From contig NZ_JAAAMG010000005.1 in assembly GCF_010500815.1 (NCBI RefSeq), positions 124,001-188,000 on the forward strand: a DNA stretch of 64,000 nucleotides. The letters are read 5' to 3'. The position numbers were made by a program, and so were the translations under genes. This DNA comes from Jiella pacifica. GTDB taxonomy: Bacteria; Pseudomonadota; Alphaproteobacteria; Rhizobiales; Rhizobiaceae. Of this stretch, positions 6,809 through 31,927 are shown piece by piece. The notes beneath the pieces are model-generated. The model was not told the origin of the DNA, ran no database searches, and saw only the letters and a program-made list of their open reading frames with translations. Each line of letters begins with the position of its first letter. Within the stretch, counting starts at the first letter, position 1.

Positions 6809-7842
6809 TCGCCTCGCAGCCGATGCGCGGCGCCGGCGCTCCGCGCTTCCCGCTCGCCGAACTCCACTGCCACATCGAAGGCGCCGCGCCGCCTGCCCTC
6901 GTCGAGCGGCTCGGCGCGAAATACGCCGTCGACGTCTCGGCGATCATCCGGGACGGCGCCTATGTCTGGCACGACTTCACCAGCTTTCTCGCCGCCTACG
7001 ACCATGCCGCGACGGTTTTCCGGAGCGAGGAGGACTATGCCGACCTCGCTTATGCCCATCTGTCGGATCTCGCGGCAGAGGGCGCACTTTATGCGGAATT
7101 CTTCATCTCTCCCGATCATGCGCGATCGAGCGGCACGGAGCCGGAGGTCTACGCCCGCGGCCTTGCCGCCGGGATAGTCCGGGCGCGGGACGAGGCCGGG
7201 ATCGAAGCCCGCATGGTGATCGTCGGCGTCCGCCATCTCGGAGCGGAGGCGGTCGAGGCGGCGGCGCGCTTTGCCGCCGGGCCGAGCCGTCCCTTCGTCA
7301 CCGGCTTCAACCTCGCCGGCGACGAACGGATCGGCGCGCCGCGCGATTTCTCCAGGGCCTTCGACGTCGCCCGCGATGCGGGCCTCGGCCTCACCGCCCA
7401 TGCCGGCGAGCTCTGCGGCCCGGAAAGCGTCAGGGCCTCGATCGACTGGCTGAAGCCTTCCCGCATCGGCCATGGCGTGCGCGCGATCGAGGATCCGGAC
7501 CTCGTCCGCGAGATCGCCGAGACGGGGATCGTCCTCGAGGTCTGCCCCGGCTCCAACCTCGCCCTCGGAATCTATCCCGACATCGCCGCCCATCCCCTGA
7601 AGCGGCTGGTCGCGGCGGGCGTCAAGGCGACGCTCGGATCGGACGACCCGCCGTTCTTTCACACCGATCTTGCCCGCGAATACCGGCTCGCGCGGGAAAA
7701 CGGTCTGACCGACGCCGAGCGGATCGCGCTGACCCGCAACGCCATCGAGGCGGCCTTCGTCGAGGAGGACGTCCGGCGCCGGCTGCTCGACCGGTTCCAG
7801 ATCGCCGCGCTTTCGCTTGGCTCGCCCGCCACATCGGACTAG
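6805..7842 (+). CDS. add: Adenosine deaminase
   Basis: The enzyme deaminates adenosine/deoxyadenosine to inosine in purine salvage. The 345-residue protein shows all family motifs: zinc ligands HCH in ELHCHIEG near the N-terminus, catalytic HAGE, GHGVRA, and GSDDPPFF with the zinc-ligand aspartate. It starts at a GTG overlapping the deoB stop (GTGA), and GGCAGGAGC upstream can serve as its ribosome-binding site. Some family members act on adenine or other aminopurines, so substrate is assigned by similarity and by the deoB/upp context. Confidence 0.92.
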
Positions 7843-7934
7843 ACCGGAGAAAGGTCTGATCCGAACCGGCGAGTACGCGCGACGCGACCGCCCACCGAAC
7901 ACGAACGAATGCGCGAGCCGAAAGAGAGGGCATC

Positions 7935-8564
7935 ATGGAGGGCATCACCGTCATCGACCATCCGCTGGTCCAGCACAAGCTGACGATCATGCGCGACAAG
8001 GAGACGTCGACGGCGAGCTTCAGAGGGCTCCTGCGAGAGATCTCGACGCTGCTTTGCTACGAGGTGACCCGCAACCTCCAACTGACGACGGTGCGCATCG
8101 AAACCCCGATGACGACGATCGACGCGCCGACGCTGGAGGGCAAGAAGCTGGTCTTCGCGTCGATCCTCAGAGCCGGCAACGGGCTTCTGGAAGGCATGCT
8201 CGATCTCGTCCCGGCCGCGCGCGTCGCCCATGTCGGCATCTACCGCGATCACGAGACGCTGCAGCCGGTCGAATATTACTTCAAGGCGCCGGAGGATCTC
8301 GCCGATCGTCTGGTCATCGTCGTCGACCCGATGCTGGCGACGGCCAACTCCGCCATCGCCGCCATCGAAAAGCTGAAGGAGCGCGGCGCCCGCAACATCC
8401 GCTTCCTGTGCCTGCTCGCCGCGCCGGAGGGCATCGAGCGCTTCCGCGCCGCCCATCCCGACGTCGAGATATTCACCGCCGCCATCGACAGCCATCTCAA
8501 CGAGAAGGGTTACATCGTGCCGGGCCTCGGCGACGCCGGCGACCGGATGTACGGCACGAAATAG
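7935..8564 (+). CDS. upp: Uracil phosphoribosyltransferase
   Basis: Upp makes UMP from uracil and PRPP in pyrimidine salvage. It has the typical family length (209 residues). The PRPP-binding loop is visible in [14 protein letters not shown], the uracil-binding C-terminus in [18 protein letters not shown], and the N-terminal HPLVQHKLT is characteristic. AGAGAGGG lies upstream of the ATG. It follows add after about 90 bases and completes a deoB-add-upp salvage cluster. Its last 55 bases overlap the 3' end of the convergent GGDEF-EAL gene. Confidence 0.96.
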
Positions 8565-10501
8565 TCCGCTTCGGCGGCCGTCGCATCGATGGAGGCCACA
8601 GGTGCCGGCACCGCCGCTGTACCGCCCCAGCCGTTTCGTTCGATGAACAGCGTCGTCTGCAGCGCGCTCATCGGTCGGGCGAAGAGGTAGCCCTGGCCGA
8701 GCTGGCATCCGGCCTCTCCGACGAGCGACAGGAGCTCCTCGGTTTCGATTCCCTCGGCGACGACGGTGGCGGAAATGTCGCGGGCAAGCCCGCAGATCGC
8801 CCTGACGATCGCGGCGCTCTTGCCCTCGTCGACCATCGTCGAGACGAAGGACTTGTCGATCTTGATCTTGTCGAAGCGGTACTGCCGCAGATAGCCCATC
8901 GAGGCGTAGCCGGTGCCGAAGTCGTCGAGCGCGATGCCGACGCCGAGCGCCCGCAATTCGTCCAGCACCGCCTTGGCATTGCCGTTGCGGATCAGCACCG
9001 TCTCGGTGATCTCGAGGATCAGCCGGTGTGGCGCCACGTCGTGGCGGAGCAGCGATTCATGCACATGGGCGACGAAGGCCTTGTCGCCGAGTTGAACCGC
9101 CGAGACGTTGACGGAAACGGTCAGCGGCTCCGGCCATTTCGCCGCGACCGAAAGCGCCCTGTCGAGGACGAAGCGGCCGATCTCGACGATGGCGCCGGTC
9201 TCCTCGGCGAGCGGAATGAAGAAATCGGGAGAGAGACGGCCGAGATCGGGATGATCCCACCGCAGCAAGGTCTCGAAGCCGTGGGCGCGCAGGGTTCCGA
9301 CCTCGACGATCGGCTGGAACACCGTCTCGAATTCGCCCCGTGACACCGCGGTGGCGAGGTCGCGCTGCAGGAGCCGGCGTTGCTCCAATCCATTGCGGAA
9401 ATCGTCCGAGGCGACGACGATGCAGTCGCCGCCGGCGCTTTTGGCGCAGTACATCGCCGCGTCTGCTTCCAACAGCAGCGCCTCCAGTGTCCGGTCCCCG
9501 TTGCTGGAGGCGGCAAGGCCGATGCTGAACGTCGGCCGCCTGTCATCGCAGCAGATCGTCTGAAGCTCACCCAGGCGGCGCGCCGCCTCGGCGCAGGCAT
9601 GCTCGGCCCGTTCCAGCGCGCCCGGCCCGACGAACAGGAGCCCGAACTCGTCGCCGCCGATGCGGGCGAACTCGTCACGCCTGTCCATCACCGCCCGAAA
9701 GATGCCACCAACCTCGCAAAGCAGCGTATCGCCACGCTGATGGCCACAACTGTCGTTGATCTCCTTGAACAGATCGAGGTCGACGACCGCGACGGCGATG
9801 TCCTTCTTCCCCGCCGTCCGGCGCGACCATTGACGGAAGGAGGCACGGTTGGGCAGGCCCGTGAGCGGATCCGTCAGGGCCTGGTGCCTGAAGCGCAGTT
9901 TCTGGACGGACAAAACGACGAGCAGGACGAGGCCGAGGCCGCACAGAAGCCGCAGATCGAAGCCGAGATCCGCCAGGGCGATCGAAAGGCGATCCCGCCA
10001 GCTGGCGATGAGGTCTCCCTGGATGCCATTGGAGAGGGTCGACAGCCTGGAGAACGTCCCGGCGAGTTGGTCGAGGCGGTCGACCACCTGGCGCGCGATC
10101 TCCGGTTGCCCGATGAGCGGCAGCACCGCTTCGATGTCGTCGCACGCCTCGGCAAGCTCTTCACGGGCGACGAGGGCATCTCGGAACGGCCGACCCGTCA
10201 TGACGAGGGGGATGGCGTCGACGCGCGTACGAACGACTTCGAAGGCGGTGTCGAGCTGATCTGGCGTGACGCGGCCCGCCTCCAATCCCTCGATGGTTCG
10301 GGCGAGCCTCTCGATCTCGATCTGCGCCCGCGCATAGTCGAACGTCGCAATGTGGGAGGACGCATCCAGCAGACCGCGGTGATAGCTCTCGGTCTGGATG
10401 GAGGTCTGGATGGCCGTCAGCCCCAGCATCACCGTCGCCGTCATGAGCACGCCGATGAACCAGCCGGCGCCCGCGAGCCGCCTGAGCGAATACCCCCTCA
10501 T
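8510..10501 (-). CDS. Membrane-bound GGDEF-EAL cyclic-di-GMP protein
   Basis: The 663-residue protein makes and/or degrades c-di-GMP. The N-terminal helix (about 13-30), a periplasmic region of about 150 residues and a second helix ([13 protein letters not shown]) form a sensor. The GGDEF domain has intact RIGGDEFG, but the inhibitory I-site reads DRRD instead of RxxD. The EAL domain keeps QPIV, FETLLRW (E retained), [32 protein letters not shown] and QGYLFARP, so phosphodiesterase activity looks possible. Its ATG overlaps the stop of the upstream oxidoreductase gene, which suggests a functional pair. Confidence 0.92.
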
Positions 10502-20384: not shown

Positions 20385-21521
20385 TTACCCCGCACGAAAA
20401 CCGCGATAGGTGGCGGCGCCCGGCTCGGCAACGGCCGACTCGGTCGTCGCCATTGTCCCGATGCTGTCGTGCAGCGGCGACTTGATGCAGACCGGGTCGG
20501 TGTTCGCCGCATCGCCCGTCAGTGCCAGGGCCTGACACCGGCAGCCGCCGAAATCGACATGCTTGCGCTCGCAGGACAGGCAGGGCTCCTTCATCCAGCT
20601 CGTGCCCCGATAGGCCGTGAAGGCGGGGCCGTCGTACCAGGTCTCGGCCAGAGAGTGGTCGCGGACGTTCCAGAAGTCGAGATGGGTGATCGTCTCGGCG
20701 GCGTGGCAGGGCAGCACCTTGCCGGATGGCGTGACCGAGAAGGTGCGGGTTCCCCAGCCGCCATTGCAGAGTTTCGGATAGCGGGCGTAGTAGTCGGGGA
20801 ACACCGCGTCGATGACCAGCGTACCCTTGAGCCTCGCGCGGGCCGTCTCGACCTCCTCGATGGTCCGGTCGACGTCCTCGCGGACCGGCATCAGCTGCGC
20901 CCGGTTCTTCAGCGCCCATCCGTAATATTGCGTGTGGGCGATCTCCAGGCGCTTGGCGCCGAACTCCACCGCCTTTTCGATCATCTCCGGCACCTGATGG
21001 ATGTTCATCCGGTGGATGACGGCGTTCAACGTCAGCGGTACGCCCCGCTCGACCACGGCCCGGGCGAAGGCCCGCTTCTTCTCATAGCCGCCACGATAGC
21101 CGCCGACCCTTTGGGTGATGCCCTCGTCGGCGCCCTGCATCGACAGCTGGATGTGATCGCAGCCGGCCTCGATGAGTGCGTCGAGCTTGGCGTCGTCGAC
21201 GCCGATGCCCGATGTGATGAGGTTGATATAAAGCCCGACCTCGGCGGCGTGGCGGGTCAGTTCGACGATGTCGCGGCGGGCCGTCGGCTCGCCGCCGGAC
21301 ATGTGGAGATGGATGACGCCGAGTTCGGCGGCTTCGCTGAAGACGCGCTTCCAGGTCTCGGTGTCGAGCTCGGCCGACTTCGGATCCAGCTGCAGCGGGT
21401 TCGAGCAATAGGTGCAGCGCAAGGGACAGCGATGGGTGACCTCGGCGAGGAGGCCGAGGGGCGGCTGCGGCTGCGGCGTGACCGCCCTGTCCGGGCGGTC
21501 GAGGAGGATCGTGTCGCTCAT
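20385..21521 (-). CDS. pqqE: PQQ biosynthesis radical SAM protein PqqE
   Basis: PqqE makes the carbon-carbon bond between the Glu and Tyr of PqqA, the first step of pyrroloquinoline quinone synthesis. The 378-residue protein has the radical-SAM cluster motif C32-x3-C36-x2-C39 (RCPLRCTYC) after [14 protein letters not shown] region with cysteines follows, including [35 protein letters not shown]. The start overlaps the pqqD stop (ATGA). It is the last gene of pqqABCDE. Confidence 0.97.
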
Positions 21522-21805
21522 AGGGTCACCATCTGCTTGTCGGACAGATCCGTCAGGAGTGCCTCGACATCCGGACGGATCGTCGCCTCGTCGGCGGTGA
21601 ACAACTGGGTCAGTTGACCGAGGATCGCCTTGAACGTCGTCTTGCCGTCGATCCGCTTCAAGATCTCGGTGGCGATCGGATCGGCCTCAAAGATCCGCTC
21701 CGGCCCGAGCAGCACGTAGCGGCCGCGGGCCTTGTCCTCGCGAAATTTCACCCCGCGCGGCAGGGCCGGGACGGTCTCGTCGGCAATGCTCCGGGGCGCC
21801 GCCAT
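21518..21805 (-). CDS. pqqD: PQQ biosynthesis peptide chaperone PqqD
   Basis: The 95-residue RiPP recognition element presents PqqA to PqqE. Family features are [27 protein letters not shown], then [15 protein letters not shown] and a C-terminal helix [12 protein letters not shown]. Here PqqD is a separate protein, whereas in some methylotrophs it is fused to PqqC. It overlaps pqqC upstream and pqqE downstream by four bases each, so translation of the three is coupled. Confidence 0.95.
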
Positions 21806-22572
21806 CAGGGCGCCTTCCCGCCGCTTTCCGCTTCGCCCGGCCGCCAGGCATCCGGCGGCGTCAGGGCCGGCTCGACATAGGCGTAGTACAACGCATCGAG
21901 CTGCGCCCAGAGCACCTGGCACTTGAAGCGCAGCGCATCCATCACCGCCTCCTGCTTCTCGCGGGTGTCGGCGTGCTCGAGGCAGTAGTTCAGGGCGAAA
22001 TCGCTGTCGCGCTTGGCCTGCACCGGCCGCTTGTCGAAATAGGCCAGCGTGTCCTGCGAGATGAAGTCGTAATGGGCCAGCATGCCCTTGGTCCGCACGC
22101 CGATGACGTTGGGCGAGAACAATTCGGTGAGCGAGGAGGCGATGGCCTCGAGCAGCGAGCGGTCGCGGACGAAATGGACGTAGGCGTCGACCGCAAAGCG
22201 CGTGCCGGCGAGGATGCCGCGGCCGGACATGACGTAGTCCCGGTCGAGGCCGACACCGTCGGTCAGCGCGATCCACTTCTCGATGCCGCCGCGCTCGGTC
22301 TCCGATCCGTCGTGATCGAGAATGCGCTGACGCCATTCGCGGCGCAATTCGACCGTGCCGAGCCGGGCGAGGATGTAGGAATCCTTCACCGGAATGTTCG
22401 CCTGATAGTAATAGCGGTTCAGCGCCCAGGCCTGAACCTGCGGGCGGTTCAGCCGGCCTTCCTGCAACAGAATCTGGAAGGGATGGAGCGAATGGTAGCG
22501 CGTCTCGCCGATCCGGCGCAACGCGGCCTCGAGTTCCGCCCCACTCATCATCTCGGCTCGGGACTTGGTCAT
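21805..22572 (-). CDS. pqqC: Pyrroloquinoline-quinone synthase PqqC
   Basis: The cofactor-free oxidase performs the last ring closure and eight-electron oxidation to PQQ. It has the typical length, 255 residues. Conserved family segments are RYHSLHPFQILLQEGRLNRPQVQAWALNRYYYQANIPVKD, IDHDGSE-like LDHDGSETERGGIEKW and HYDFISQDTLAYFDKR. The ATG overlaps the pqqB stop by four bases and its own stop overlaps the pqqD start, giving strict order pqqB-C-D. Confidence 0.96.
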   Translation of the reverse strand: MTKSRAEMMSGAELEAALRRIGETRYHSLHPFQILLQEGRLNRPQVQAWALNRYYYQANIPVKDSYILARLGTVELRREWRQRILDHDGSETERGGIEKWIALTDGVGLDRDYVMSGRGILAGTRFAVDAYVHFVRDRSLLEAIASSLTELFSPNVIGVRTKGMLAHYDFISQDTLAYFDKRPVQAKRDSDFALNYCLEHADTREKQEAVMDALRFKCQVLWAQLDALYYAYVEPALTPPDAWRPGEAESGGKAP

Positions 22573-23519
22573 AAGGCGATCTCCATCCCGTCATGGGTGA
22601 CCGTCCAGCCGGCGGCTTCGACGGTCGCGCGTTGGTCGGAACCCTGGACGAGAATGGGGTTCGTGTTGTTGATGTGGATATAGGCGCGGCGGGCGATGTC
22701 GAGCCCCTCGAAGGCGTGAAGGCTGCCGCCCTCGCCCGAGATCGGCATGTGGCCCATGCGCCGGCCGGTCTTTTCCCCGACGCCGGCCTGCCGCATCTCG
22801 TCGTCGGCAAAGAGCGTGCCGTCGAAGAGCAGCGCGTCGGCGTCGCGAATGCGCTCCGCGAGCGTTGCCGGCAAATGGGCGCAGCCGGGAATGTAGAAGG
22901 CGGTCTTTCCGTGCGCCGAAAGCTTCACCCCGACGGTCATCTCGCTTTCCTCGCCGACATCGACCTCGCCCCTCTCCATGAACAGCGGCACCTTGCCGGG
23001 CACGGAGAAGATCTCGACGAAGAGGCCCGGCAAAGGCTCGAAGCCGGCGCCGATCGCCACCGGGCGCTTTTCGACGAAGGCCGGATCGAGCACCTGAAAA
23101 ACCGGGCTCTCGGCGATCATGCCGAGAACGCCGGTCGTTCCGTAGAGCGGGAAGCGCTGCTTTTCGCGCAGTGTCAGGAGCCCGGCGATGTGGTCGACGT
23201 CGCCATTGGTTACGAGCACGGCGGAAATTGGCGTCGCCCGCCTTGCCGCGTCATCGGCATGAGCGCTGGGGGCAAGCCGCGGCGAGGTCAGCACCTGTTG
23301 GCGCAGATCCGGCGAGGCATTCAACAAGAGCCAGTTGCGGCCGTCGGCGGATGCGGCGATCGAGGACTGCGAGCGCGCAACGACCCGCTCGTCGCCGGCC
23401 CAGTAGAGCCGGCAGACGTCGCACAGACAGTTCCACTGCGGGTAGCCGCCGCCGGCAGCAGAGCCCAAAACAAAAAGCCGCAGGCGGTGATCCCGCCCGC
23501 GGCCCATATCGACAGTCAT
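22569..23519 (-). CDS. pqqB: PQQ biosynthesis protein PqqB (metallo-beta-lactamase fold hydroxylase)
   Basis: PqqB is the metallo-beta-lactamase-fold protein of PQQ synthesis, now regarded as a tyrosine hydroxylase acting before PqqC. The 316-residue protein has LGSAAGGGYPQWNCLCDVC, including the conserved zinc-binding cysteines. TNGDVDHIAGLL replaces the canonical HxHxDH, and GHMPISGEGGS and HINNTNPIL lie near the end, as in other PqqB proteins. Six bases separate it from pqqA, so both are on one transcript. Confidence 0.95.
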   Translation of the reverse strand: MTVDMGRGRDHRLRLFVLGSAAGGGYPQWNCLCDVCRLYWAGDERVVARSQSSIAASADGRNWLLLNASPDLRQQVLTSPRLAPSAHADDAARRATPISAVLVTNGDVDHIAGLLTLREKQRFPLYGTTGVLGMIAESPVFQVLDPAFVEKRPVAIGAGFEPLPGLFVEIFSVPGKVPLFMERGEVDVGEESEMTVGVKLSAHGKTAFYIPGCAHLPATLAERIRDADALLFDGTLFADDEMRQAGVGEKTGRRMGHMPISGEGGSLHAFEGLDIARRAYIHINNTNPILVQGSDQRATVEAAGWTVTHDGMEIAL

Positions 23520-23906: not shown

Positions 23907-25271
23907 TCATCCTCGCGCCGTACCCTCCAGCGCATCGACGAAGAGCGAGGGCTGGCCGAGTTGGCCGCCCTTGAGGACGACTTGCAGGCCGTCGAAACCC
24001 GGCTCGGTGCCGTGGCAGCGGCAGACGGGAGCCCCGCGACCGAGGGGGTGGGCGACTTCCAGCGCCAGGACCGGGATGGTCTCGAGCACCCTGCCCGAGG
24101 TGTCGCCGCCGGCAACCACGATGCGCTTCAGATCGAAGGCCGGAACGGCATTCGCAGCGACGAGACCGAGGGTGCGGCCGATGGCGTCCTGGGCAGCCGA
24201 GAAGCTGGCGTCGGTGCCGGCCCGCTCCTTCAGGGCGACGAAGGCCGGGTCGTCGACGGTCTTCGCGGCAAAGACGACGACGCCCTTGCCGGTCGCGAAG
24301 GCAGCCGTCGCCGCATCCATGATGCGGGCGACCTCACCCTCCTGCCGCGCGGCGTCGACCGCGGCCTCGACGTCGAGACGGACCGCGGCGAAGCCGGCCG
24401 CCTCGGCCGCGGCGATCTGCTCGGCGGTGACCGGCGAGCAGCTTCCCGACAGAACCAGCAGGCGATCCACCGCCGCTGCCGGCGGGAAGGTGGGCGCTTC
24501 CGGCGGCAAGACGCCGGTCTCGCGCCAATGGGCGACGAGGGCGTATTGCAGACCGGAGGAAGAGGCGCTGAAGATCCCCTCTCCCGCCCCCTCCCAGACG
24601 AGGCGGCCGGCCTCGCGCTGGGACGCGTCGTCGGCGACGTCGACGAAGGCCACCGCGCGCTCGGCCCGGGCCTTCTCACGCTCGGCCCCTGCTTCGCCCC
24701 GCGCCAGGCTGGCGAGGTCGATACCGAGAATCGTGCGCCCGGTCTGCTCTTTCAGATGCAGGCGCAGATCGCTCTCCCGCATCGGGGTGACCGGATGGCG
24801 GGACATGGTCGGATGGCGATCGATCCGGTAGCGGGTTCCGCCGGCCGCCGCGAACAGATTGCTGAAGACGAGCCAGCGGCCGAGATGCGGCGCCCCGACG
24901 ATGCTCGGCGACCAGTCGGCCGCAACGAACCGGCTGCCGATGTCGATCGCCTTGCCGATGGAGCCGGTCCGCGGCGAGGAATCGAAGGTCGAGCAGACCT
25001 TGTACTGGATGATCCGCGGCGACAGCTTCGCCAGCGCCTCGAAACAGGCGGGGAGATTCTCCTCCATCCATTCCGGCGACTGGGAGCGCGCCGTCCCGGC
25101 AATGCCGACGACGGGGTAGCCTTCAAAACGCGCAAGATCCTCCGCGCTCGGCACCCCGGTGAAGAGGACGGTCGGCAATCCCGCCAGGGCCGTCACCTCC
25201 AAAGCGTCGGTGGACCCGGTGAAATCGTCGCCGTAAAATGCCAGCATCACGTTTCCGGTGGCAATCGTCAT
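23907..25271 (-). CDS. Four-carbon acid sugar kinase family protein (DUF1537)
   Basis: The 454-residue protein belongs to the DUF1537 kinases, which phosphorylate oxidised acid sugars such as 3-oxo-tetronate or 3-oxo-isoapionate (OtnK, DtnK, OiaK). The substrate-side motif FYGDDFTGSTDAL (14-20) is at the N-terminus. The C-terminal nucleotide domain has LSGSCSPVT and VVAGGDTSG. It is the last gene of the TRAP-SDR-RuBisCO-like operon; its ATG overlaps the RuBisCO-like stop. The pairing suggests the kinase product is the RuBisCO-like substrate. The exact sugar acid cannot be decided from sequence. Confidence 0.9.
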   Translation of the reverse strand: MTIATGNVMLAFYGDDFTGSTDALEVTALAGLPTVLFTGVPSAEDLARFEGYPVVGIAGTARSQSPEWMEENLPACFEALAKLSPRIIQYKVCSTFDSSPRTGSIGKAIDIGSRFVAADWSPSIVGAPHLGRWLVFSNLFAAAGGTRYRIDRHPTMSRHPVTPMRESDLRLHLKEQTGRTILGIDLASLARGEAGAEREKARAERAVAFVDVADDASQREAGRLVWEGAGEGIFSASSSGLQYALVAHWRETGVLPPEAPTFPPAAAVDRLLVLSGSCSPVTAEQIAAAEAAGFAAVRLDVEAAVDAARQEGEVARIMDAATAAFATGKGVVVFAAKTVDDPAFVALKERAGTDASFSAAQDAIGRTLGLVAANAVPAFDLKRIVVAGGDTSGRVLETIPVLALEVAHPLGRGAPVCRCHGTEPGFDGLQVVLKGGQLGQPSLFVDALEGTARG

Positions 25272-26539
25272 GAGAACTTCTCCACGGCCTCGGCCAGTTC
25301 GGGGGAGCGTTTGGCGGCTTCGCCGAGGGGAATTCCGGCGCTCGCGGCATCGAAGGCTTGCCTGAGGGACCTGACACCGGCGGCGATCCCCCTCGGATGG
25401 GCGACGATGCCCCCGCCGGCGCAGAAGATGAAGTCGCTCGAATCGAGGCGCGCCAGAGTGGGCTCGGCCTGCATCACCGTCTGGCCGGAGGAGAACACCG
25501 GCATGACGACGTTCCGATGGCTTTTCGTCATCGGCGTCAGGCAGGCCCGCGCGGAGGCGACGACGCTGTCGTCGGGTTCCCAGAACTTGTTGGCAATGCC
25601 GTTTACATGCATGTGGTCGACACCGGCAAGCCGCCAGATCTTCTGCCAGGCGACGTAGGAGAAGCCATTGTCCACTGACCGGCCGAGATAGCCCCAGCCA
25701 TTGCGGTGGGCATGGATCGGCAGCCGAGCATGGCGCCGCAGGGCGGTGACCCCGGCCGGCCCGACCCCGTTGAGGCTGACCATCACGCAGCTTCCGCCGA
25801 GCTCGGCGACGAGATCGTGGCGCCGCAGCATCTCGTCGATCTCGCCCGTCAGATTGAAAGCGACCATGACGGTCCGGCCGGTTCGCGCCTCGTGGCGCCG
25901 GACCACGTCGAGCACCCGCTTCACGCGCTCGTCGAACGGGCAGCCAGGCCCGTCCGCCTGCAGCTCGTCGTCCTTGACGAAGTCGATGCCGCCCTCGCAG
26001 AGCTGGTCGACGACGGCCGCCGTCTCCGCCGGATCGAGCCCGACGGAGGGCTTGACGATGGTGCCGATCAGGGGACCCTCCGCGACGCCGGCAAGGCGCC
26101 GCGTACCCGCGACGCCGAAGGCCGGCCCGGGATAGGCGGCGTAGAATTCGGCCGGCACGGCGAAGTCGAGCAGCTTCAGCCCGGCAACGTCACGCAGCTC
26201 GTAGAGATTGCCGGCAAGGGCGGCGAGAAGGTTTGGCAGCGAGGCGCCGAGATTGGCGAAGGGCCAGGACAGCTCCATCTCGTAGCTGGCCAACGCGCCG
26301 GGCGATGCACCGGGAAGCGGCGGCAGACCACCATCCTCGACCGGGGCCAGCCGCTCGACACGCGCGGCTGAGCGCTGCTTGAGCGCCTCGCTCTCGCCGG
26401 GAACTGGAAGAAACGTGCCAGATGATTGCTCACCGGCGACGATGGCCGCGACCTTGTCCGCATCGCCCGCAGTGCGCAGAAGATAGGTGGCGCGGATGCG
26501 CCCCGGCCCGGCGGCCGGGGCCTCGGCGGCGACGTTCAC
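25268..26539 (-). CDS. RuBisCO-like protein (form IV), probable acid-sugar phosphate enzyme
   Basis: The 423-residue protein has the RuBisCO large-subunit fold. K163 in TIVKPSVGLDP corresponds to the first active-site lysine. The metal/carbamate motif IDFVKDDE (185-192) is intact. HAHRNGWGY, HVNGIANKFW (with K318 near loop 6) and AGGGIVAHP follow. Sequence differences from true RuBisCO and the kinase/TRAP context indicate a RuBisCO-like protein, of which OiaX (3-oxo-isoapionate-4-phosphate decarboxylase) is a characterised relative. The GTG start overlaps the SDR stop (GTGA), with GGGAGG upstream. The reaction is inferred. Confidence 0.88.
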   Translation of the reverse strand: MNVAAEAPAAGPGRIRATYLLRTAGDADKVAAIVAGEQSSGTFLPVPGESEALKQRSAARVERLAPVEDGGLPPLPGASPGALASYEMELSWPFANLGASLPNLLAALAGNLYELRDVAGLKLLDFAVPAEFYAAYPGPAFGVAGTRRLAGVAEGPLIGTIVKPSVGLDPAETAAVVDQLCEGGIDFVKDDELQADGPGCPFDERVKRVLDVVRRHEARTGRTVMVAFNLTGEIDEMLRRHDLVAELGGSCVMVSLNGVGPAGVTALRRHARLPIHAHRNGWGYLGRSVDNGFSYVAWQKIWRLAGVDHMHVNGIANKFWEPDDSVVASARACLTPMTKSHRNVVMPVFSSGQTVMQAEPTLARLDSSDFIFCAGGGIVAHPRGIAAGVRSLRQAFDAASAGIPLGEAAKRSPELAEAVEKFS

Positions 26540-27498
26540 CTCTTGCCTCCCTGCGCCTCGATCCACCGGGCGTAGTCTTCGATACCGGCATGGATGTCGG
26601 TGAATCGGGGCGAAAAGCCGAGGCGCTGGCGCGCCTTGGTGATGTCGAGCGGCGCGCCGCGCTCGAAGAAGCGCCCCGGCCCCAGGGCCATGCCGCTCCT
26701 GCGACCGGCGATTTCGTCGGACGTCTTCATGATCTCGTCGTGGCGCACGGCGACGCCGGACGAGACGTTGAACGCCTCCCCCGCGACGTCGGACGGAGCG
26801 TCGATGAGCGCGACGATACCCGCCGCCGTGTCGCGCACGTGAGTCCAGTCGAGCGACTGGTCGCCGCCCGACGGCGAGGAGACGTTCTCCAGCCCCTCGA
26901 GCGCCCCGAACATCGCCTGGTAGAGCACGTGCATCCGCGAGGGCATCCGGCCGGGCCCGTAGACGAAGTAGAGGCGAGCGTTGCGCACGTCGAAGCCGTA
27001 GGTGCCGCCATACTGGAGCGCCAGCGCCTCATTGGCCGCCTTGGTCGCGCCGTAGAGGTCGGTGACCTGAACCGGCGTCTCCTCGGTCTGCCCGCCGGGA
27101 TGATTGCCGTAGATCGCACCGGAGGAGAGGTTGACGAACTTCGGCACGCCGAGGATGCGGCAGGCTTCGAGAACGTTCAGCATCCCGACCGTGTTGATCT
27201 GGATGTTGCGGAACGGACGCCTGGCGAAGCTTGGTCCGGCGATGACCGCGACGCCCCAGACGACGCAGTCGATCTTCCCCTCGTAGGCCCGCATGCGCTC
27301 GAAAAGCGTATGGACGTCGAGGACATCGACGTTCTCGAGGGTGATCCGGTCGGCGACGGCTTCGAGATGATCGAGGCCGCGACCTTCCAGCCGGTCGGCG
27401 CCGGCGTCGAAGATCACCACCTCCTCGCCGCGGGCCGCCAGGTCGTGCGCGACCCAGGAACCGACATGACCGAGGCCGCCGAAAACAAGCACAGACAT
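26536..27498 (-). CDS. NAD-dependent epimerase/dehydratase (extended SDR)
   Basis: The 320-residue protein has the Rossmann motif GGLGHVGS (7-14), an aspartate after beta-2 (D31) favouring NAD, serines 125-126, and catalytic Y149-x3-K153 in YGATK. RLYFVYGPGR and NVSSG are typical of the sugar-nucleotide epimerase-like extended SDRs. In this operon it most likely oxidises or epimerises a free sugar acid or lactone before the kinase acts. It sits between the TRAP genes and the RuBisCO-like gene; the substrate is unknown. Confidence 0.88.
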   Translation of the reverse strand: MSVLVFGGLGHVGSWVAHDLAARGEEVVIFDAGADRLEGRGLDHLEAVADRITLENVDVLDVHTLFERMRAYEGKIDCVVWGVAVIAGPSFARRPFRNIQINTVGMLNVLEACRILGVPKFVNLSSGAIYGNHPGGQTEETPVQVTDLYGATKAANEALALQYGGTYGFDVRNARLYFVYGPGRMPSRMHVLYQAMFGALEGLENVSSPSGGDQSLDWTHVRDTAAGIVALIDAPSDVAGEAFNVSSGVAVRHDEIMKTSDEIAGRRSGMALGPGRFFERGAPLDITKARQRLGFSPRFTDIHAGIEDYARWIEAQGGKR

Positions 27499-27529
27499 CG
27501 TCTACTCCGGTGATTCTGACCCGCGCCCG

Positions 27530-28822
27530 TCAGTTCAGCAGCCAGTTCGGCACACCGAGGACGAGCCACGGAATGAAGGTGATCGCGATCAGCATCCCGA
27601 ACAGCGGGATGTAGAAGGGCAGGATCTCGCGCACCAGGCTGCCGAACGGGATGTCGGCGACCTTCTGAACGGTGAACAGAACGGTTCCAACCGGTGGCGT
27701 GACGAGGCCGATCATCAGGTTGAAGATCATGACGACGCCGAAATGGACGGGGTCGATGCCGTAGCTCACGACCAGCGGCGTCAGGATCGGCGTCAGCAGG
27801 AACAGGGCCGGCACGCTGTCGATGAAGCAGCCGACGAGGAGGATGAAGAGGTTGAGAAGCAGCAGCAGCACCCACTTGTCCGCGACGTTGGCGGACAGGA
27901 AGTCGATGATCTGCGATGTCACCTGATAGCGCGCCAGCACCCAGGCGTAGAGGGCCGAGCCGGCAATGATGACGAGCAGCGCCGCCGTGTCCACCGCCGT
28001 TTCGCGGCAGATTGTCCAGAACTCCCGCAGCGAGATCGTCCGGTAGACGAAAAAGGCGATCAGCGCGCAGTAGACGACGGCGATGGCGGACGCCTCGGTG
28101 GGCGTGAAGACCCCCGACAGGATGCCGGCGATAATGATGACCGGGGTCAGGATCGGCAGGAAGCCGCGGCCGCAGGCCCGCAGGATGTCGCGGATCGAAG
28201 CCCGCGTAGCGACGGGGTAGCCGCGCTTGTGAGACATGTAGGCGACGAGGGCCATGAGACCGAGGCCCATCAGGACGCCGGGCACGATCGAGCCGAGAAA
28301 CACCGCGGCGATCGAGACATTGGCCAGGGCGCCGTAGATGACGGCCGGAATGCTCGGTGGGATGATCGGGCCGATGGTCGCCGAACTCGCGGTGACCGCG
28401 GCGCTGAAGCCCCGGTCGTAGCCGTCCTTCTCCATCGCCTTCATCTGGACCGGCCCGAGGCCGCCGGCATCGGCGACGGCGGAGCCGGACATGCCGGCGA
28501 ACAGCATGCTCGACAGGACGTTGACGTGGCCGAGGCCGCCCCGCAGATGCCCCACAAGCGAGCGGGCGATGTCGAAGACCCGGTCCGAGATCCCCGAGGT
28601 GTTCATCAGACGGCCGATCAGGAGGAAGGCCGGGATGGCGAGGAGGGTGAAACTGTTGACGCCGTAAAGCGTGCGCTGCGCCACCATCTCGTAGGGCACC
28701 GAGCCGAGACCTCGGTTCGAGGCGAGGACGGCGATCGACGCGCCGATCATCGCGAAGCCGACCGGAACACCGACGAAGAGCAGCAGCAGCAGCGTGCCGA
28801 ACAGGGCAAAGAAGATCGTCAT
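27530..28822 (-). CDS. dctM: TRAP transporter large permease
   Basis: The 430-residue protein has about twelve membrane helices. DctM family segments are GVPVGFAMIGASI, AIPAFLLIGRLMNTSGIS, GHLRGGLGHVNVLSSMLFAGMSGSAVADAGGLGP and SATIGPIIPPSIPAVIYG, with FNLMIGLVTPPVGTVLF near the end. It is the ion-coupled channel of a TRAP importer. The ATG overlaps the dctQ stop (ATGA). With DctP and DctQ it should import the organic or sugar acid that the downstream enzymes process. Confidence 0.95.
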   Translation of the reverse strand: MTIFFALFGTLLLLLFVGVPVGFAMIGASIAVLASNRGLGSVPYEMVAQRTLYGVNSFTLLAIPAFLLIGRLMNTSGISDRVFDIARSLVGHLRGGLGHVNVLSSMLFAGMSGSAVADAGGLGPVQMKAMEKDGYDRGFSAAVTASSATIGPIIPPSIPAVIYGALANVSIAAVFLGSIVPGVLMGLGLMALVAYMSHKRGYPVATRASIRDILRACGRGFLPILTPVIIIAGILSGVFTPTEASAIAVVYCALIAFFVYRTISLREFWTICRETAVDTAALLVIIAGSALYAWVLARYQVTSQIIDFLSANVADKWVLLLLLNLFILLVGCFIDSVPALFLLTPILTPLVVSYGIDPVHFGVVMIFNLMIGLVTPPVGTVLFTVQKVADIPFGSLVREILPFYIPLFGMLIAITFIPWLVLGVPNWLLN

Positions 28823-29334
28823 GCCGCGCTCTCCGGTGTGGAGCGGCCGAAAAGGGTCAGGACGAGGTCGCGCAGGACGAGCAGCACCAGCATCGCGATC
28901 CCGATCGCCTGGATGAGATAAAGGGTGGAGAAGGACACAGGGATGGTGCTGGCGCTGACGCTGCCGGTCCGCTGCATCATCCCGACGGCGCCCCAGACGA
29001 GGGCGCCCGCGATGGCGACGGTCAAAAGGTCGCCGATGACGTCGAATACCCGGCGCGCAGAGCGCGGCAGCATGTCGAGGAGGATGGTGATGCGGATCTG
29101 CGCCCCGGCCCGCTGCGCGATCGCCGCGCCGAGAAAGATCTCGCCGATGAACAGGAAGCGCGAGGTCTCGTCGGTCCAGGGGACGCCGACCGCGAAGACG
29201 TATCGCGCCGCGACTTGGACGAACATGACGACCAGCATGCCGATGAAGGCGAGGGTCATGACCGTTTCGACGGCAGACCAGAAGACGGCGGCGACGCGCC
29301 AGGCTCCAGCCCCCTCGTTCAATGGACGTTCCAC
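28819..29334 (-). CDS. dctQ: TRAP transporter small permease
   Basis: The 171-residue four-helix membrane protein is the small subunit that pairs with DctM. Typical elements are VAARYVFAVGVPWTDETSRFLFIGEIFLGAAIAQRAGAQIRI, the DctQ signature region. It begins 63 bases after dctP, with a perfect 12-bp stem-loop in between, and overlaps dctM by four bases. Confidence 0.92.
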   Translation of the reverse strand: MERPLNEGAGAWRVAAVFWSAVETVMTLAFIGMLVVMFVQVAARYVFAVGVPWTDETSRFLFIGEIFLGAAIAQRAGAQIRITILLDMLPRSARRVFDVIGDLLTVAIAGALVWGAVGMMQRTGSVSASTIPVSFSTLYLIQAIGIAMLVLLVLRDLVLTLFGRSTPESAA

Positions 29335-29361
29335 GAAGATCCTCCCGACCGACCAACCGTC

Positions 29362-29390
29362 GCGGGAGCGCGCGGTGGGCGCGCTCCCGC
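29362..29390 (-). other. Intercistronic stem-loop between dctP and dctQ
   Basis: The 12-base arms 29362-29373 and 29379-29390 are perfectly complementary around a five-base loop. There is no T-run on the leftward strand. Its position just after the binding-protein gene suggests it protects or partly terminates the transcript, so that dctP is expressed more than the permeases. Confidence 0.6.
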
Positions 29391-29397
29391 TCTCGCC

Positions 29398-30372
29398 TCA
29401 CTCGTCGCCGAGCTTCGAGAGCACGTATTCGCGGACCTCAGGGGCGAAGCCCTCGGCGATGCGGCGGATGGCCGGCGCAGCCTTCTGGCGGAAGGCCGCG
29501 ACGTCCGGCTCGACCACTTCCATGCCCTTTTCCTGGAGCTGCTCGTAGAGCTTGTCCTGGTTGCCGGTGACGAGATCGTCGCCCCAGACGATCGCCTCGT
29601 CGATCGCCGACTGGATCATCGTGCGATCCTCTTCCGGCAGGCCCTGATAGAAGTCCTCGTTCATCAGCCAGTGGAAGAAGGAATAGACGTGCTCGGTGCG
29701 GTTCACATAGGACTGCACTTCGAAGAGCTTGCCCGACCAGATGTAGTCGACGGGGTTTTCCTGCATGTCGATGACGCCCGTCTGGAGCGAGGTGTAGACC
29801 TCCGGCCAGGCGATCGGCGAAGGCAGTGCGCCGATCTCGGTCCAGATCTCTACCCAGGGTGCGATCTCGGGGACGCGCATGCGGACGCCCTCGACGTCCG
29901 CAGGGGTCTTGACCGGCGTCTTCGAGGTCAGGTTGCGCGGATTGCGCACCGACAGGCCGACGAGCCGCAGATGGCCGCTCTCGATGACCTTCTGCCGCAG
30001 GGCTTCGCCCATCTCGCCCTCATACACCTTCCGCGCCTCTTCGCTGGAACCGAAAGTGAAGGGCAGATCGGCCGCCGCATATTCCGGCGCATAGAGGGTC
30101 ATCGGCATCGAGCCCCCGAGAGCGATCTGGTATTCGCCGAAGCTCGCCCCCTCCAGATGGTCGCGCTCGCCGCCAACCTCGGTGCCGAGCAGCGTCACGG
30201 TATAGCGCCCGCCCGACTGCTCCTCGATGTTCTTCTTCAGCCGCTCGCCGACCTGAAACATCTCGTGGCTGGGTTCGACATGCAGCGCGATCGCGATGTC
30301 CTCGGCGAATGCCGGCATCGTCGACACGGTGGTGGCCGCCGCGAGCAGCGCGGCGCGTAGCATCGTTCTCAT
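29398..30372 (-). CDS. dctP: TRAP transporter substrate-binding protein
   Basis: The 324-residue periplasmic solute receptor has a signal peptide ending near MPAFA. DctP features are LHVEPSHEMFQVGERLKKNIEEQSGGRYTV, the carboxylate-binding region RNPRNLTSKTPVKTPADVEGVRMRVPE (with the conserved Arg) and EVYTSLQTGVIDMQENP. The start was set at the ATG preceded by GGGAGG. It leads a six-gene leftward operon and is separated from the GntR regulator by a region with a FadR-type operator. The ligand is expected to be a sugar acid. Confidence 0.93.
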   Translation of the reverse strand: MRTMLRAALLAAATTVSTMPAFAEDIAIALHVEPSHEMFQVGERLKKNIEEQSGGRYTVTLLGTEVGGERDHLEGASFGEYQIALGGSMPMTLYAPEYAAADLPFTFGSSEEARKVYEGEMGEALRQKVIESGHLRLVGLSVRNPRNLTSKTPVKTPADVEGVRMRVPEIAPWVEIWTEIGALPSPIAWPEVYTSLQTGVIDMQENPVDYIWSGKLFEVQSYVNRTEHVYSFFHWLMNEDFYQGLPEEDRTMIQSAIDEAIVWGDDLVTGNQDKLYEQLQEKGMEVVEPDVAAFRQKAAPAIRRIAEGFAPEVREYVLSKLGDE

Positions 30373-30418
30373 AAGAACCTCCCGATTCGGTATGGCCGCT
30401 CCCGTGGCCATTCTCAAC

Positions 30419-30451
30419 TGGTCCGACCATCAGACATTCAGATGAGATGGT
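30419..30451. promoter_or_regulatory. FadR-type GntR operator in the divergent dctP/regulator gap
   Basis: TGGTCCGACCA at 30419-30429 is a perfect TGGT-N3-ACCA palindrome, the classic recognition pattern of FadR-subfamily GntR regulators. A second inverted repeat overlaps it: ACCATC at 30426-30431 with GATGGT at 30446-30451. Both lie 47-80 bases upstream of dctP and about 70-90 bases upstream of the regulator gene, suitable for controlling both directions. Confidence 0.7.
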
Positions 30452-30518
30452 GACTTTCTGGCGTAAACTTGGTAGCCGTGTCAATGGGTGCTCGAACGAA
30501 GCGACAGGATAGGTGGAC

Positions 30519-31289
30519 ATGACAGATCCGGACGGTCCGGCAGCGCCCGCCACGCGGGCCCGCCGCCTGTTGAAGCCGAAACGGATGCACGAGGAGCTCG
30601 TGGAAATACTCGCGACGGAGATCTGCGAGGGCGTCTACGGAACCGACGATCCCCTCCCCTCCGAGCGCGATCTGATGGAAGAGTTCGGTGTCTCGCGGCT
30701 GACGGTGCGCGAGGCGATCGCCGCCCTGCAAAGCCGCGGCATGGTGACGACACGGCCGGGAACGCGGGCGCGCGTCTCGGCGCCGCAGCCGGACTTTCTC
30801 CTGTCCATGCTGTCGCAGGCCGCGACCTATCATCTGGCCCAGCCCGGCGGGCTGCGCTCGCTGATGCAGGTCCGGCTCATCGTGGAAACCGGGACGGCGC
30901 GCATCGCGGCGGAACAGGCCGACGACAGGACCGTCGCCGAACTGAAGGCGACGCTCGAGCGCAATCGCGCCGCGATGGGCGACCTCGAGGCCTTCGGTCG
31001 CACCGACATCGAGTTCCACGCCGCGATCGCGCGGATCGTCGGCAACCCGATGATCGATGCCTTCTTCGCCGCAGTCAGCGAATGGCTGACGGAGGTGCGC
31101 AATACCAGCCTCCAGACACCCGGTCAGACCGAGCGCGCCTTCAAAGCCCATGTGCGGATCTTCGCGGCGATCGAAGCGCGCGATCCGATGCAAGCCAGCG
31201 AAGAAATGTCGCGCCACCTCACCCAGCTCGCCGGGGTCTATCCGCCGGCCCCGACCGCAGTGCCGCGACACGACGAGGACAGACGATGA
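30519..31289 (+). CDS. FadR/GntR-family transcriptional regulator (FCD domain)
   Basis: The 256-residue protein has an N-terminal winged helix-turn-helix, PLPSERDLMEEFGVSRLTVREAIAALQSRGMV, the GntR signature. An all-helical C-terminal domain has the FCD metal-site pattern RLIVETG, DIEFHAAIARIVGNPM and AHVRIFAAIEARD. Such regulators bind organic acids or sugar acids and usually repress neighbouring catabolic genes. It is divergent from dctP and overlaps the aldolase gene by four bases. A GTG at 30513 is an alternative start. Confidence 0.9.
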   Translation: MTDPDGPAAPATRARRLLKPKRMHEELVEILATEICEGVYGTDDPLPSERDLMEEFGVSRLTVREAIAALQSRGMVTTRPGTRARVSAPQPDFLLSMLSQAATYHLAQPGGLRSLMQVRLIVETGTARIAAEQADDRTVAELKATLERNRAAMGDLEAFGRTDIEFHAAIARIVGNPMIDAFFAAVSEWLTEVRNTSLQTPGQTERAFKAHVRIFAAIEARDPMQASEEMSRHLTQLAGVYPPAPTAVPRHDEDRR

Positions 31290-31927
31290 GCGACGAGACC
31301 CGGCTGCGGGAAAAGATCTGCCGGATGGCGCAGTCGCTCTTCGATCGCGGCCTGACCTGCGGCTCGTCGGGCAACATCTCGGCGCGCACGGCAGATGGCG
31401 GCCTTCTGGTGACGCCGACGGGCTCGACCATGGGCGATCTGGATCCGGCGCGGCTGTCGCTCTTCGACGCCGACGGACGATTCGTATCGGGCGACAAGCC
31501 GACGAAGGAAATGCCGCTGCACGAGGCCTTCTACCGCACGCGCGGCACGACGGGCGCGGTCGTCCACCTGCATTCCACCCATTCGGTGGCCTATTCGATG
31601 TTGCCGGACGTCGATCCAGACGACGTCCTGCCGCCGCTCACCGCCTATTCGGTCATGCGCCTGGGAAGGGTGAAGCTGCTTCCCTATTTCATGCCCGGCG
31701 ATCCGGCGATGGGGGCGGCCGTCGCCGAACTCGGCGGCACCCGCCCCGCAGTCATCCTCGCCAATCACGGCCCTGTCGTCGCCGGCAAGGATCTCGACGC
31801 GGCCGTCTTCGCCACCGAGGAACTGGAAGAAACGGCGAAACTTGCCATGCTCCTCAGGAGAGAATCGCCGCGCATGCTCACCGCCGATCAGGTTCGGGCA
31901 CTGCGCGAGCGCTATCCGCTCGACTGA
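31286..31927 (+). CDS. Class II aldolase/decarboxylase family protein (OtnC/FucA-like)
   Basis: The 213-residue zinc enzyme has TCGSSGNISAR, TPTGSTMGDL, E75 in KEMPLHE, zinc-ligand histidines H94 and H96 in VVHLHSTHS, and H161 in LANHGPVV. These match the class II aldolases. In DUF1537 pathways the relative OtnC decarboxylates 3-oxo-tetronate 4-phosphate to dihydroxyacetone phosphate. It overlaps the FadR-type gene (ATGA) and is divergent from the transporter-kinase operon. Either it or the RuBisCO-like protein may cleave the kinase product; this is inference. Confidence 0.87.
   Translation: MSDETRLREKICRMAQSLFDRGLTCGSSGNISARTADGGLLVTPTGSTMGDLDPARLSLFDADGRFVSGDKPTKEMPLHEAFYRTRGTTGAVVHLHSTHSVAYSMLPDVDPDDVLPPLTAYSVMRLGRVKLLPYFMPGDPAMGAAVAELGGTRPAVILANHGPVVAGKDLDAAVFATEELEETAKLAMLLRRESPRMLTADQVRALRERYPLD

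Follow-up and report, generated by a model that had tools for sequence, protein, structure and literature searches.

A TRAP-dehydrogenase cassette of Jiella pacifica with a RuBisCO-like protein and an OiaK-like kinase, a rare and conserved version of acid-sugar catabolism

Gene content and layout of the locus

A 64-kb window of the Jiella pacifica genome, by which we mean the whole stretch of DNA analysed, carries eight intact genes that combine a RuBisCO-like protein (RLP) and a DUF1537 kinase with an extended short-chain dehydrogenase/reductase (SDR), a tripartite ATP-independent periplasmic (TRAP) importer, a regulator and a class II aldolase-fold enzyme. Transcription on the minus strand runs in the order dctP, dctQ, dctM, SDR, RLP and kinase. 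These genes encode the TRAP solute-binding protein DctP (29398-30372, PF03480), the small permease DctQ (28819-29334, PF04290), the large permease DctM (27530-28822; TIGR00786 at 426.7 bits, over the cut-off of 268.45), the SDR (26536-27498, Pfam Epimerase), an RLP of 423 amino acids with a GTG start (25268-26539, Pfam RuBisCO_large) and an OiaK-like kinase of 454 amino acids (23907-25271), assigned from NCBIfam, PF07005 and diagnostic columns. On the plus strand lie a NanR-like, GntR-type regulator with an FCD domain (30513-31289, PF00392 and PF07729) and OtnC, a 3-oxo-tetronate 4-phosphate decarboxylase (31286-31927, over the cut-off of NF043034). Four-base overlaps join dctQ to dctM, the SDR gene to the RLP gene (whose GTG start and the SDR stop overlap as GTGA) and the RLP gene to the kinase gene, and another joins the two plus-strand genes. 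Pfam and NCBIfam profile searches agree with the families assigned. A first-pass annotation made from the sequence alone had described the six minus-strand genes as overlapping or nearly contiguous and divergent from the regulator and the class II enzyme, and the coordinates that it gave for the locus are confirmed.

The gene set is not a chance assembly, since a survey of gene neighbourhoods found the TRAP-SDR-RLP-kinase combination in eight further loci and two of these share with the window an unchanged 19-bp near-palindrome between the regulator gene and dctP. The locus is very probably a single co-regulated cassette for a sugar acid. The first-pass annotation is supported in calling it an acid-sugar locus, and its two candidate enzymes for C-C cleavage, RLP and OtnC, do share one divergent promoter. 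The genes do not all fall inside a characterised pathway: no ApnO (PF16896), ApnL, apionate-type Gfo/Idh dehydrogenase or OtnI-like gene was matched in the 64-kb window, and no OtnK was found in the 5.77-Mb genome (97.2% complete), where the lone DUF1537 protein stays below the OtnK cut-off. In the open literature, with subscription papers outside the scope of the search, no account of the RLP-kinase-SDR-TRAP-OtnC set was among the matches listed, in keeping with the suggestion that the combination is undescribed. What we observe is a conserved, rare version of RLP-DUF1537 acid-sugar catabolism that, by the tests made here, corresponds to neither D-apionate nor tetronate catabolism.

Distribution of the cassette and exchange of its catabolic module

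We found the SDR-TRAP cassette in 11 distinct loci, with TRAP genes in all of them and a regulator in 10 (no regulator was matched in L044). Nine of the 11 contain an RLP and an OiaK-like kinase: the window, Aurantimonas manganoxydans (L072), a metagenome-assembled genome (MAG) labelled A. coralicida (L073), Fulvimarina endophytica (L074), Seohaeicola (L075), F. pelagi (L076), Oceaniovalibus (L077), an uncultured member of the Rhodobacteraceae (L083) and L044 (genome G159). ApnO was matched neither in the window nor in the other eight of these loci. OtnC is present in four of the nine (window, L074, L075 and L076) and was not found in the stretch of the remaining five. The other two of the 11 cassettes, on plasmid pD4M1C of Paroceanicella profunda (L160) and in Rhodobacteraceae G665 (L183), carry OtnK and OtnC with no RLP in the stretch. 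Both Paroceanicella proteins score over their cut-offs; in G665, OtnC is over the cut-off and OtnK is 93% identical to that of Paroceanicella. The ratio of nine to two is biased, because most RLP loci came from RLP-centred searches; SDR-centred searches alone gave five loci, three with the RLP (the source genome and the Seohaeicola used as search centre among them) and two with OtnK and OtnC.

The SDR that unites these loci is rare, occurring in 2 of 397 genomes of the order (source genome included), in 2 of 345 genomes of the Seohaeicola family (search centre included), in 1 of 385 genomes of the class (the source genome) and in 1 of 72,556 plasmid records. It reached no NCBIfam cut-off, and DenD, the D-erythronate dehydrogenase (NF043036), was rejected as its identity at 40.7 bits against a cut-off of 325. 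The structure model of the SDR has a predicted local distance difference test score (pLDDT) of 71.3. S125, Y149 and K153, which we take to be the catalytic triad, are invariant in 11 of 11 homologues, as is D31, from which one might guess a preference for NAD+. About 115 SDR positions, the catalytic motifs among them, are invariant across the RLP-type and the OtnK-OtnC-type cassettes, and we therefore assume that both kinds of cassette share one type of SDR product. Accordingly, the RLP and the OiaK-like kinase replace OtnK and OtnC, or run beside them. Given that five of nine RLP cassettes have no OtnC in the stretch and two of 11 cassettes use OtnK and OtnC without an RLP, RLP and OtnC look like alternative or parallel outlets, and the earlier idea of two cleavages in series is not supported.

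In the 137-row tree described below, the RLP of L044 stood among ApnO-linked RLPs. The possibility that L044 joined its RLP to the SDR-TRAP cassette independently was not upheld, as an approximately unbiased test (56 rows) did not reject a grouping of L044 and the window clade (p 0.644). In L074, the interval 7141-8822 holds a gene similar to the Asp/Glu racemase-like genes of Sphingomonadales RLP loci together with the OtnI/hydroxypyruvate-isomerase-like gene considered below.

The RuBisCO-like protein lies outside OiaX

Against the OiaX model NF042437, the window RLP scores 435.4 bits with a cut-off of 700. Over the 397 genomes of the order, members of this model score 758-791 bits and all other matches 488 bits or less. 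No model of OiaT, the 3-oxo-isoapionate-4-phosphate transcarboxylase/hydrolase, was among the NCBIfam matches. The motifs read in the first-pass annotation are exact with the 423-aa start (K163, IDFVKDDE at 185-192 and K318; 161, 183 and 316 in a 421-aa version), whereas its OiaX-like reading of the protein is contradicted by score, tree and catalytic residues alike.

The tree comprised 137 distinct rows, drawn from the window and from 144 loci in which the match covered 80% or more of the query, and was a quick one with support from the Shimodaira-Hasegawa-like approximate likelihood ratio test and no bootstrap. The 17 OiaX rows form one side of a branch with support 100. The window falls outside it, in a set of 16 rows (support 99) made up of nine SDR-cassette rows, in which the window appears twice (again as L152), and seven rows linked to classical SDRs. 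No ApnO, ApnL or Gfo/Idh match was found in the window or in the stretches of the 14 other loci of this set, three of which are represented by stretches below 8 kb (L079, L082 and L085); such context labels vary with the length of the stretch examined.

The window RLP keeps 14 of 14 RuBisCO positions checked (E60, T65, N123, K175, K201, D203, E204, H294, R295, H327, K334, S379, G403 and G404), a list that, aligned to the RuBisCO motifs, represents the catalytic set. In RuBisCO numbering, W66 is replaced by F and K177 by S. Across 136 rows (L152 excluded as the window again), E60, N123 and H327 are kept in 119 of 119 non-OiaX RLPs, the window included, and are D, G and Q in 17 of 17 OiaX proteins. 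Only one column, none of the catalytic ones checked, parts the SDR-linked clade (15 rows) from the ApnO/ApnL-linked RLPs (67 rows) at 80% conservation in both. The neighbourhoods also differ: among loci of more than 12 kb, LerI-like genes accompany 7 of 17 OiaX loci versus 0 of 103 others, and DerI 5 of 17 versus 1 of 103. LerI was recognised by its position beside DerI and a start like that of triosephosphate isomerase, not by a profile model. The 120 loci labelled by gene context include a few places that occur twice under two identifiers (six sets named).

Since score, tree and residues all speak against OiaX, the window RLP should not be presumed to carry out plain decarboxylation. The residue pattern suggests that OiaX may be a simplified decarboxylase and that the large group containing the window RLP may retain what is needed for CO2 transfer and hydrolysis. 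We lean towards a window enzyme that is something other than a plain OiaX-type decarboxylase. As a separate observation, the RLPs of L064 and L065, the only 2 of the 119 non-OiaX proteins changed at any of the 14 positions, have lost T65, E204, H294, K334 and S379; no DUF1537 kinase was matched in their stretches, and they are perhaps non-catalytic.

The kinase and genomic clues to its role

The window kinase scores 554.7 bits against OiaK (NF042436, cut-off 700) and 171.5 bits against OtnK (cut-off 350). We defined 45 columns diagnostic of OiaK versus OtnK from 61 ApnO/ApnL-linked and 16 OiaX-linked OiaK proteins and four OtnK proteins. The window kinase has the OiaK-type residue in 40 of the 45; in the ApnO/ApnL-linked kinases, the mean is 42.5 and the minimum 30. 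It is also the sole DUF1537 (PF07005) match in the J. pacifica genome. A second RLP locus in this genome (L032, G000:C12:372000-391000) encodes an RLP 60% identical to that of the window, with ApnO and TRAP genes, and no DUF1537 kinase was matched in its 19-kb stretch.

Jiella avicenniae offers a reduced version of the locus. At the syntenic place (L173, G397:C12, 8778-10583), the kinase is intact and 91% identical, the RLP is cut to C-terminal pieces, and the regulator, OtnC, TRAP and SDR genes are gone from the stretch; a search of the genome matched no cassette-type SDR. The dN/dS of the kinase (0.16) is similar to that of two flanking genes (0.19 and 0.14). J. avicenniae also has an ApnO-RLP locus without a kinase of its own (L097) and two other DUF1537 proteins, an OtnK beside OtnC and another with weak likeness to OtnK. 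Taken together, the OiaK-type columns, the kinase-less ApnO-RLP loci and the retention of the kinase in J. avicenniae suggest that it serves 3-oxo-isoapionate, and we consider it fairly likely that this compound is accepted. Because J. pacifica and F. pelagi have OtnC and no second DUF1537 kinase was found in either genome, the window-type kinase probably feeds OtnC too. A kinase supplying both RLP and OtnC would point to a single branch point with two outlets.

Other arrangements of RLP and kinase were met among the loci collected. In five betaproteobacterial MAGs (L080, L081, L082, L084 and L085), a classical SDR gene precedes an RLP of the window clade and the DUF1537 kinase is divergent, with OiaK-type residues in 30-32 of 45 columns and no ApnO found; this is another cassette variant. 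A separate RLP clade (L067, L068, L177, L200, L201, L202 and L203) has divergent kinases with 18-29 of 45 OiaK columns and no ApnO match, and possibly represents a further substrate class. A GH127 glycosidase, again with no ApnO match, accompanies 12 RLP-kinase loci (L116, L121, L123, L124, L126, L127, L129, L132, L135, L139, L146 and L149). Most of these are from Sphingomonadales, and several also have a gene from a cluster in which the representative contains an apiosidase-like domain.

OtnC, importer, regulator and putative operator

OtnC scores 307.4 bits against NF043034 (cut-off 250) and is 72% identical to the Paroceanicella OtnC. The zinc histidines noted in the first-pass annotation are present, as H94, H96 and H161, and so is E75; presumably all four have a role with zinc. 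As its gene overlaps that of the regulator, OtnC most likely belongs to the same transcription unit. The regulator reaches 209.5 bits against the NanR model, below the cut-off of 260. The best solved relatives of DctP by sequence are 4pc9, 4nq8, 4xeq, 4pdh, 4pdd and 4p9k. We take the ligands of 4pdh, 4pdd, 4p9k and 4pak to be erythronate or pantoate, for which the papers gave no confirmation. The DctP model was too poor for a structure search (pLDDT 44.7).

The putative operator between the regulator and dctP (30416-30434) spans 19 bp with 5-bp arms, TGGTC and GACCA. L072 and L073 have exactly the sequence of the window, L075 has one mismatch and L077 two; a repeat scan with an 8-bp minimum did not report it. 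Its 16-bp core occurs exactly once in the 5.77-Mb genome, the next best being eight further sites at two mismatches; at up to three mismatches, there are 95 genome matches versus 67 for a reversed control. Only the one site therefore stands out in the genome. Promoter and terminator scans gave two promoter-like sites (0.6 expected) and two terminator-like ones (4.0 expected), which we did not use as evidence. Adjoining the cassette in the window (20385-23519) is what appears by eye to be a pyrroloquinoline quinone biosynthesis cluster, with pqqB-, pqqC- and pqqE-like genes.

A proposed pathway and its alternatives

We infer the substrate and all reactions from the observed gene content, conservation, swap pattern and residues. 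Tentatively, we propose that the cassette is dedicated to the breakdown of a tetronate-type acid, most likely one with a branch at C2 (2-C-hydroxymethyl-tetronate, 'isoapionate', or a closely similar compound), that would be cleaved by the RLP. The TRAP importer would take up the acid. The SDR, proposed here as a 3-dehydrogenase of the imported acid, would turn the C3 hydroxyl directly into the 3-oxo acid, replacing ApnO or a C2-dehydrogenase with OtnI; that the SDR makes the 3-oxo acid taken by the kinase is likely. The OiaK-type kinase would then phosphorylate the terminal hydroxyl, and the RLP, with its full RuBisCO catalytic set, would act on the resulting beta-keto acid phosphate. The apiose-pathway transcarboxylase/hydrolase yields 3-phosphoglycerate and glycolate. 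With a branched substrate, the same products would be expected of the window RLP through decarboxylation, recarboxylation and hydrolysis, compared with simple decarboxylation by OiaX. OtnC may form a second outlet, converting linear 3-oxo-tetronate 4-phosphate into dihydroxyacetone phosphate. The order given by the first-pass annotation, oxidation, phosphorylation and then decarboxylation or cleavage, is plausible.

Two of the closest known systems act on D-apionate and on tetronates. A passage in PMC6302742 describes D-apionate catabolism by ApnO, OiaK and an RLP that is either the OiaX decarboxylase or a transcarboxylase/hydrolase. The window resembles this pathway in its pair of DUF1537 kinase and RLP, in the OiaK diagnostic residues of the kinase and in RLP catalytic residues common to ApnO-linked non-OiaX proteins. 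It differs in having an SDR and TRAP genes where ApnO, ApnL and the Gfo/Idh dehydrogenase would stand, and in an RLP outside the OiaX equivalog. For tetronates, Zhang et al. in 2016 are said to have described the catabolism of four-carbon acid sugars via OtnI, OtnK and OtnC. The window shares with that pathway an OtnC over the cut-off and an SDR-TRAP-regulator cassette that, in Paroceanicella profunda and G665, carries OtnK and OtnC; unlike it, the window has an OiaK-type kinase and an added RLP, with no OtnK found in the genome and no OtnI-like gene in the window (one below cut-off lies elsewhere in the genome).

The residues of kinase and RLP, equal to those of D-apionate loci, are the evidence for a branched acid, and we put branching at slightly less than an even chance. 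Several observations weigh against our proposal. OtnK and OtnC in two cassettes and OtnC in four others favour a linear tetronate. An OtnI/hydroxypyruvate-isomerase-like gene stands directly before the RLP in Fulvimarina endophytica (L074), with 239.9 bits against OtnI (cut-off 325) and 255.3 bits against hydroxypyruvate isomerase (cut-off 353). Elsewhere in the genome, all 7 of the 7 species or strains searched, the source of the window among them, have an OtnI-like gene that stays below the cut-off, so that a route through OtnI is conceivable. The 19-bp site was not matched, at up to five mismatches in the same region, in 6 of 11 cassettes (L074, L076, L083, L160, L183 and L044). LerI is absent from the stretch of 10 of 17 OiaX loci as well, and it is from residues and neighbours that the chemistry of the SDR-linked RLP clade is predicted.

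The strongest alternative, possible if not likely, involves no branched acid: the SDR would form 3-oxo-tetronate from erythronate or threonate for the kinase to convert into the 4-phosphate, and the RLP would stand in for OtnC, giving dihydroxyacetone phosphate and CO2, or 3-phosphoglycerate and formate. The OtnK-OtnC cassettes, the OtnC genes and the OtnI-like neighbour just cited fit this scheme, as do the apparent lack of another DUF1537 kinase to feed OtnC in J. pacifica and F. pelagi and the single OtnC over cut-off in each of six cassette genomes tested, a count without a base rate for comparison. However, the kinase and RLP residues agree with D-apionate loci and not with OtnK, and J. 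avicenniae, a genome with an ApnO locus, has kept the kinase without its neighbours. A more specific version is unlikely, namely that a full-set RLP replaces OtnC in straight-chain four-carbon acid catabolism, behind a one-step 3-oxo-tetronate SDR without OtnI, and performs RuBisCO-type CO2 transfer and hydrolysis.

A D-hamamelonate pathway is less probable still. In it, the SDR would oxidise 2-C-hydroxymethyl-D-ribonate and, after phosphorylation, the RLP would cleave the product as an oxygenase. Passages in two sources point to a precedent in Ochrobactrum anthropi, whose RLP is reported to complete hamamelose assimilation, with a link to 3-phosphoglycerate and glycolate (PMC8914248), in a reaction cited as an oxygenation (PMC10176493). 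The likeness, compared by description only, lies in a branched sugar acid with an RLP as final step, but a six-carbon acid does not fit the OtnK-OtnC cassette variants. It is very improbable that the RLP and the kinase serve only the ApnO-bearing locus and that it means nothing that they lie next to the SDR and TRAP genes: the survival of the kinase alone in J. avicenniae would agree with this, whereas the genes overlap and the set recurs in Aurantimonas, Fulvimarina, three Rhodobacterales loci and one further genome. Least probable is a second D-apionate pathway with the SDR as a non-homologous oxidoisomerase in place of ApnO, for although the RLP-kinase module is that of D-apionate loci, carbon migration is not expected of an SDR, none of the nine RLP cassettes yielded a match to ApnO, ApnL or the Gfo/Idh dehydrogenase, and the genome already has an ApnO locus (L032).

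Implications for RuBisCO-like proteins

The cassette amounts to a natural exchange experiment, in which a closely similar importer and dehydrogenase stand before either OtnK and OtnC or an OiaK-like kinase and an RLP. Offering one SDR product to both modules would tell whether RLPs use linear tetronates. The split at E60, N123 and H327 (kept in 119 of 119 non-OiaX RLPs versus 0 of 17 OiaX proteins) provides a sequence test for acid-sugar RLPs that might go beyond decarboxylation, and it bears on how the chemistry of RuBisCO relates to that of its catabolic relatives.

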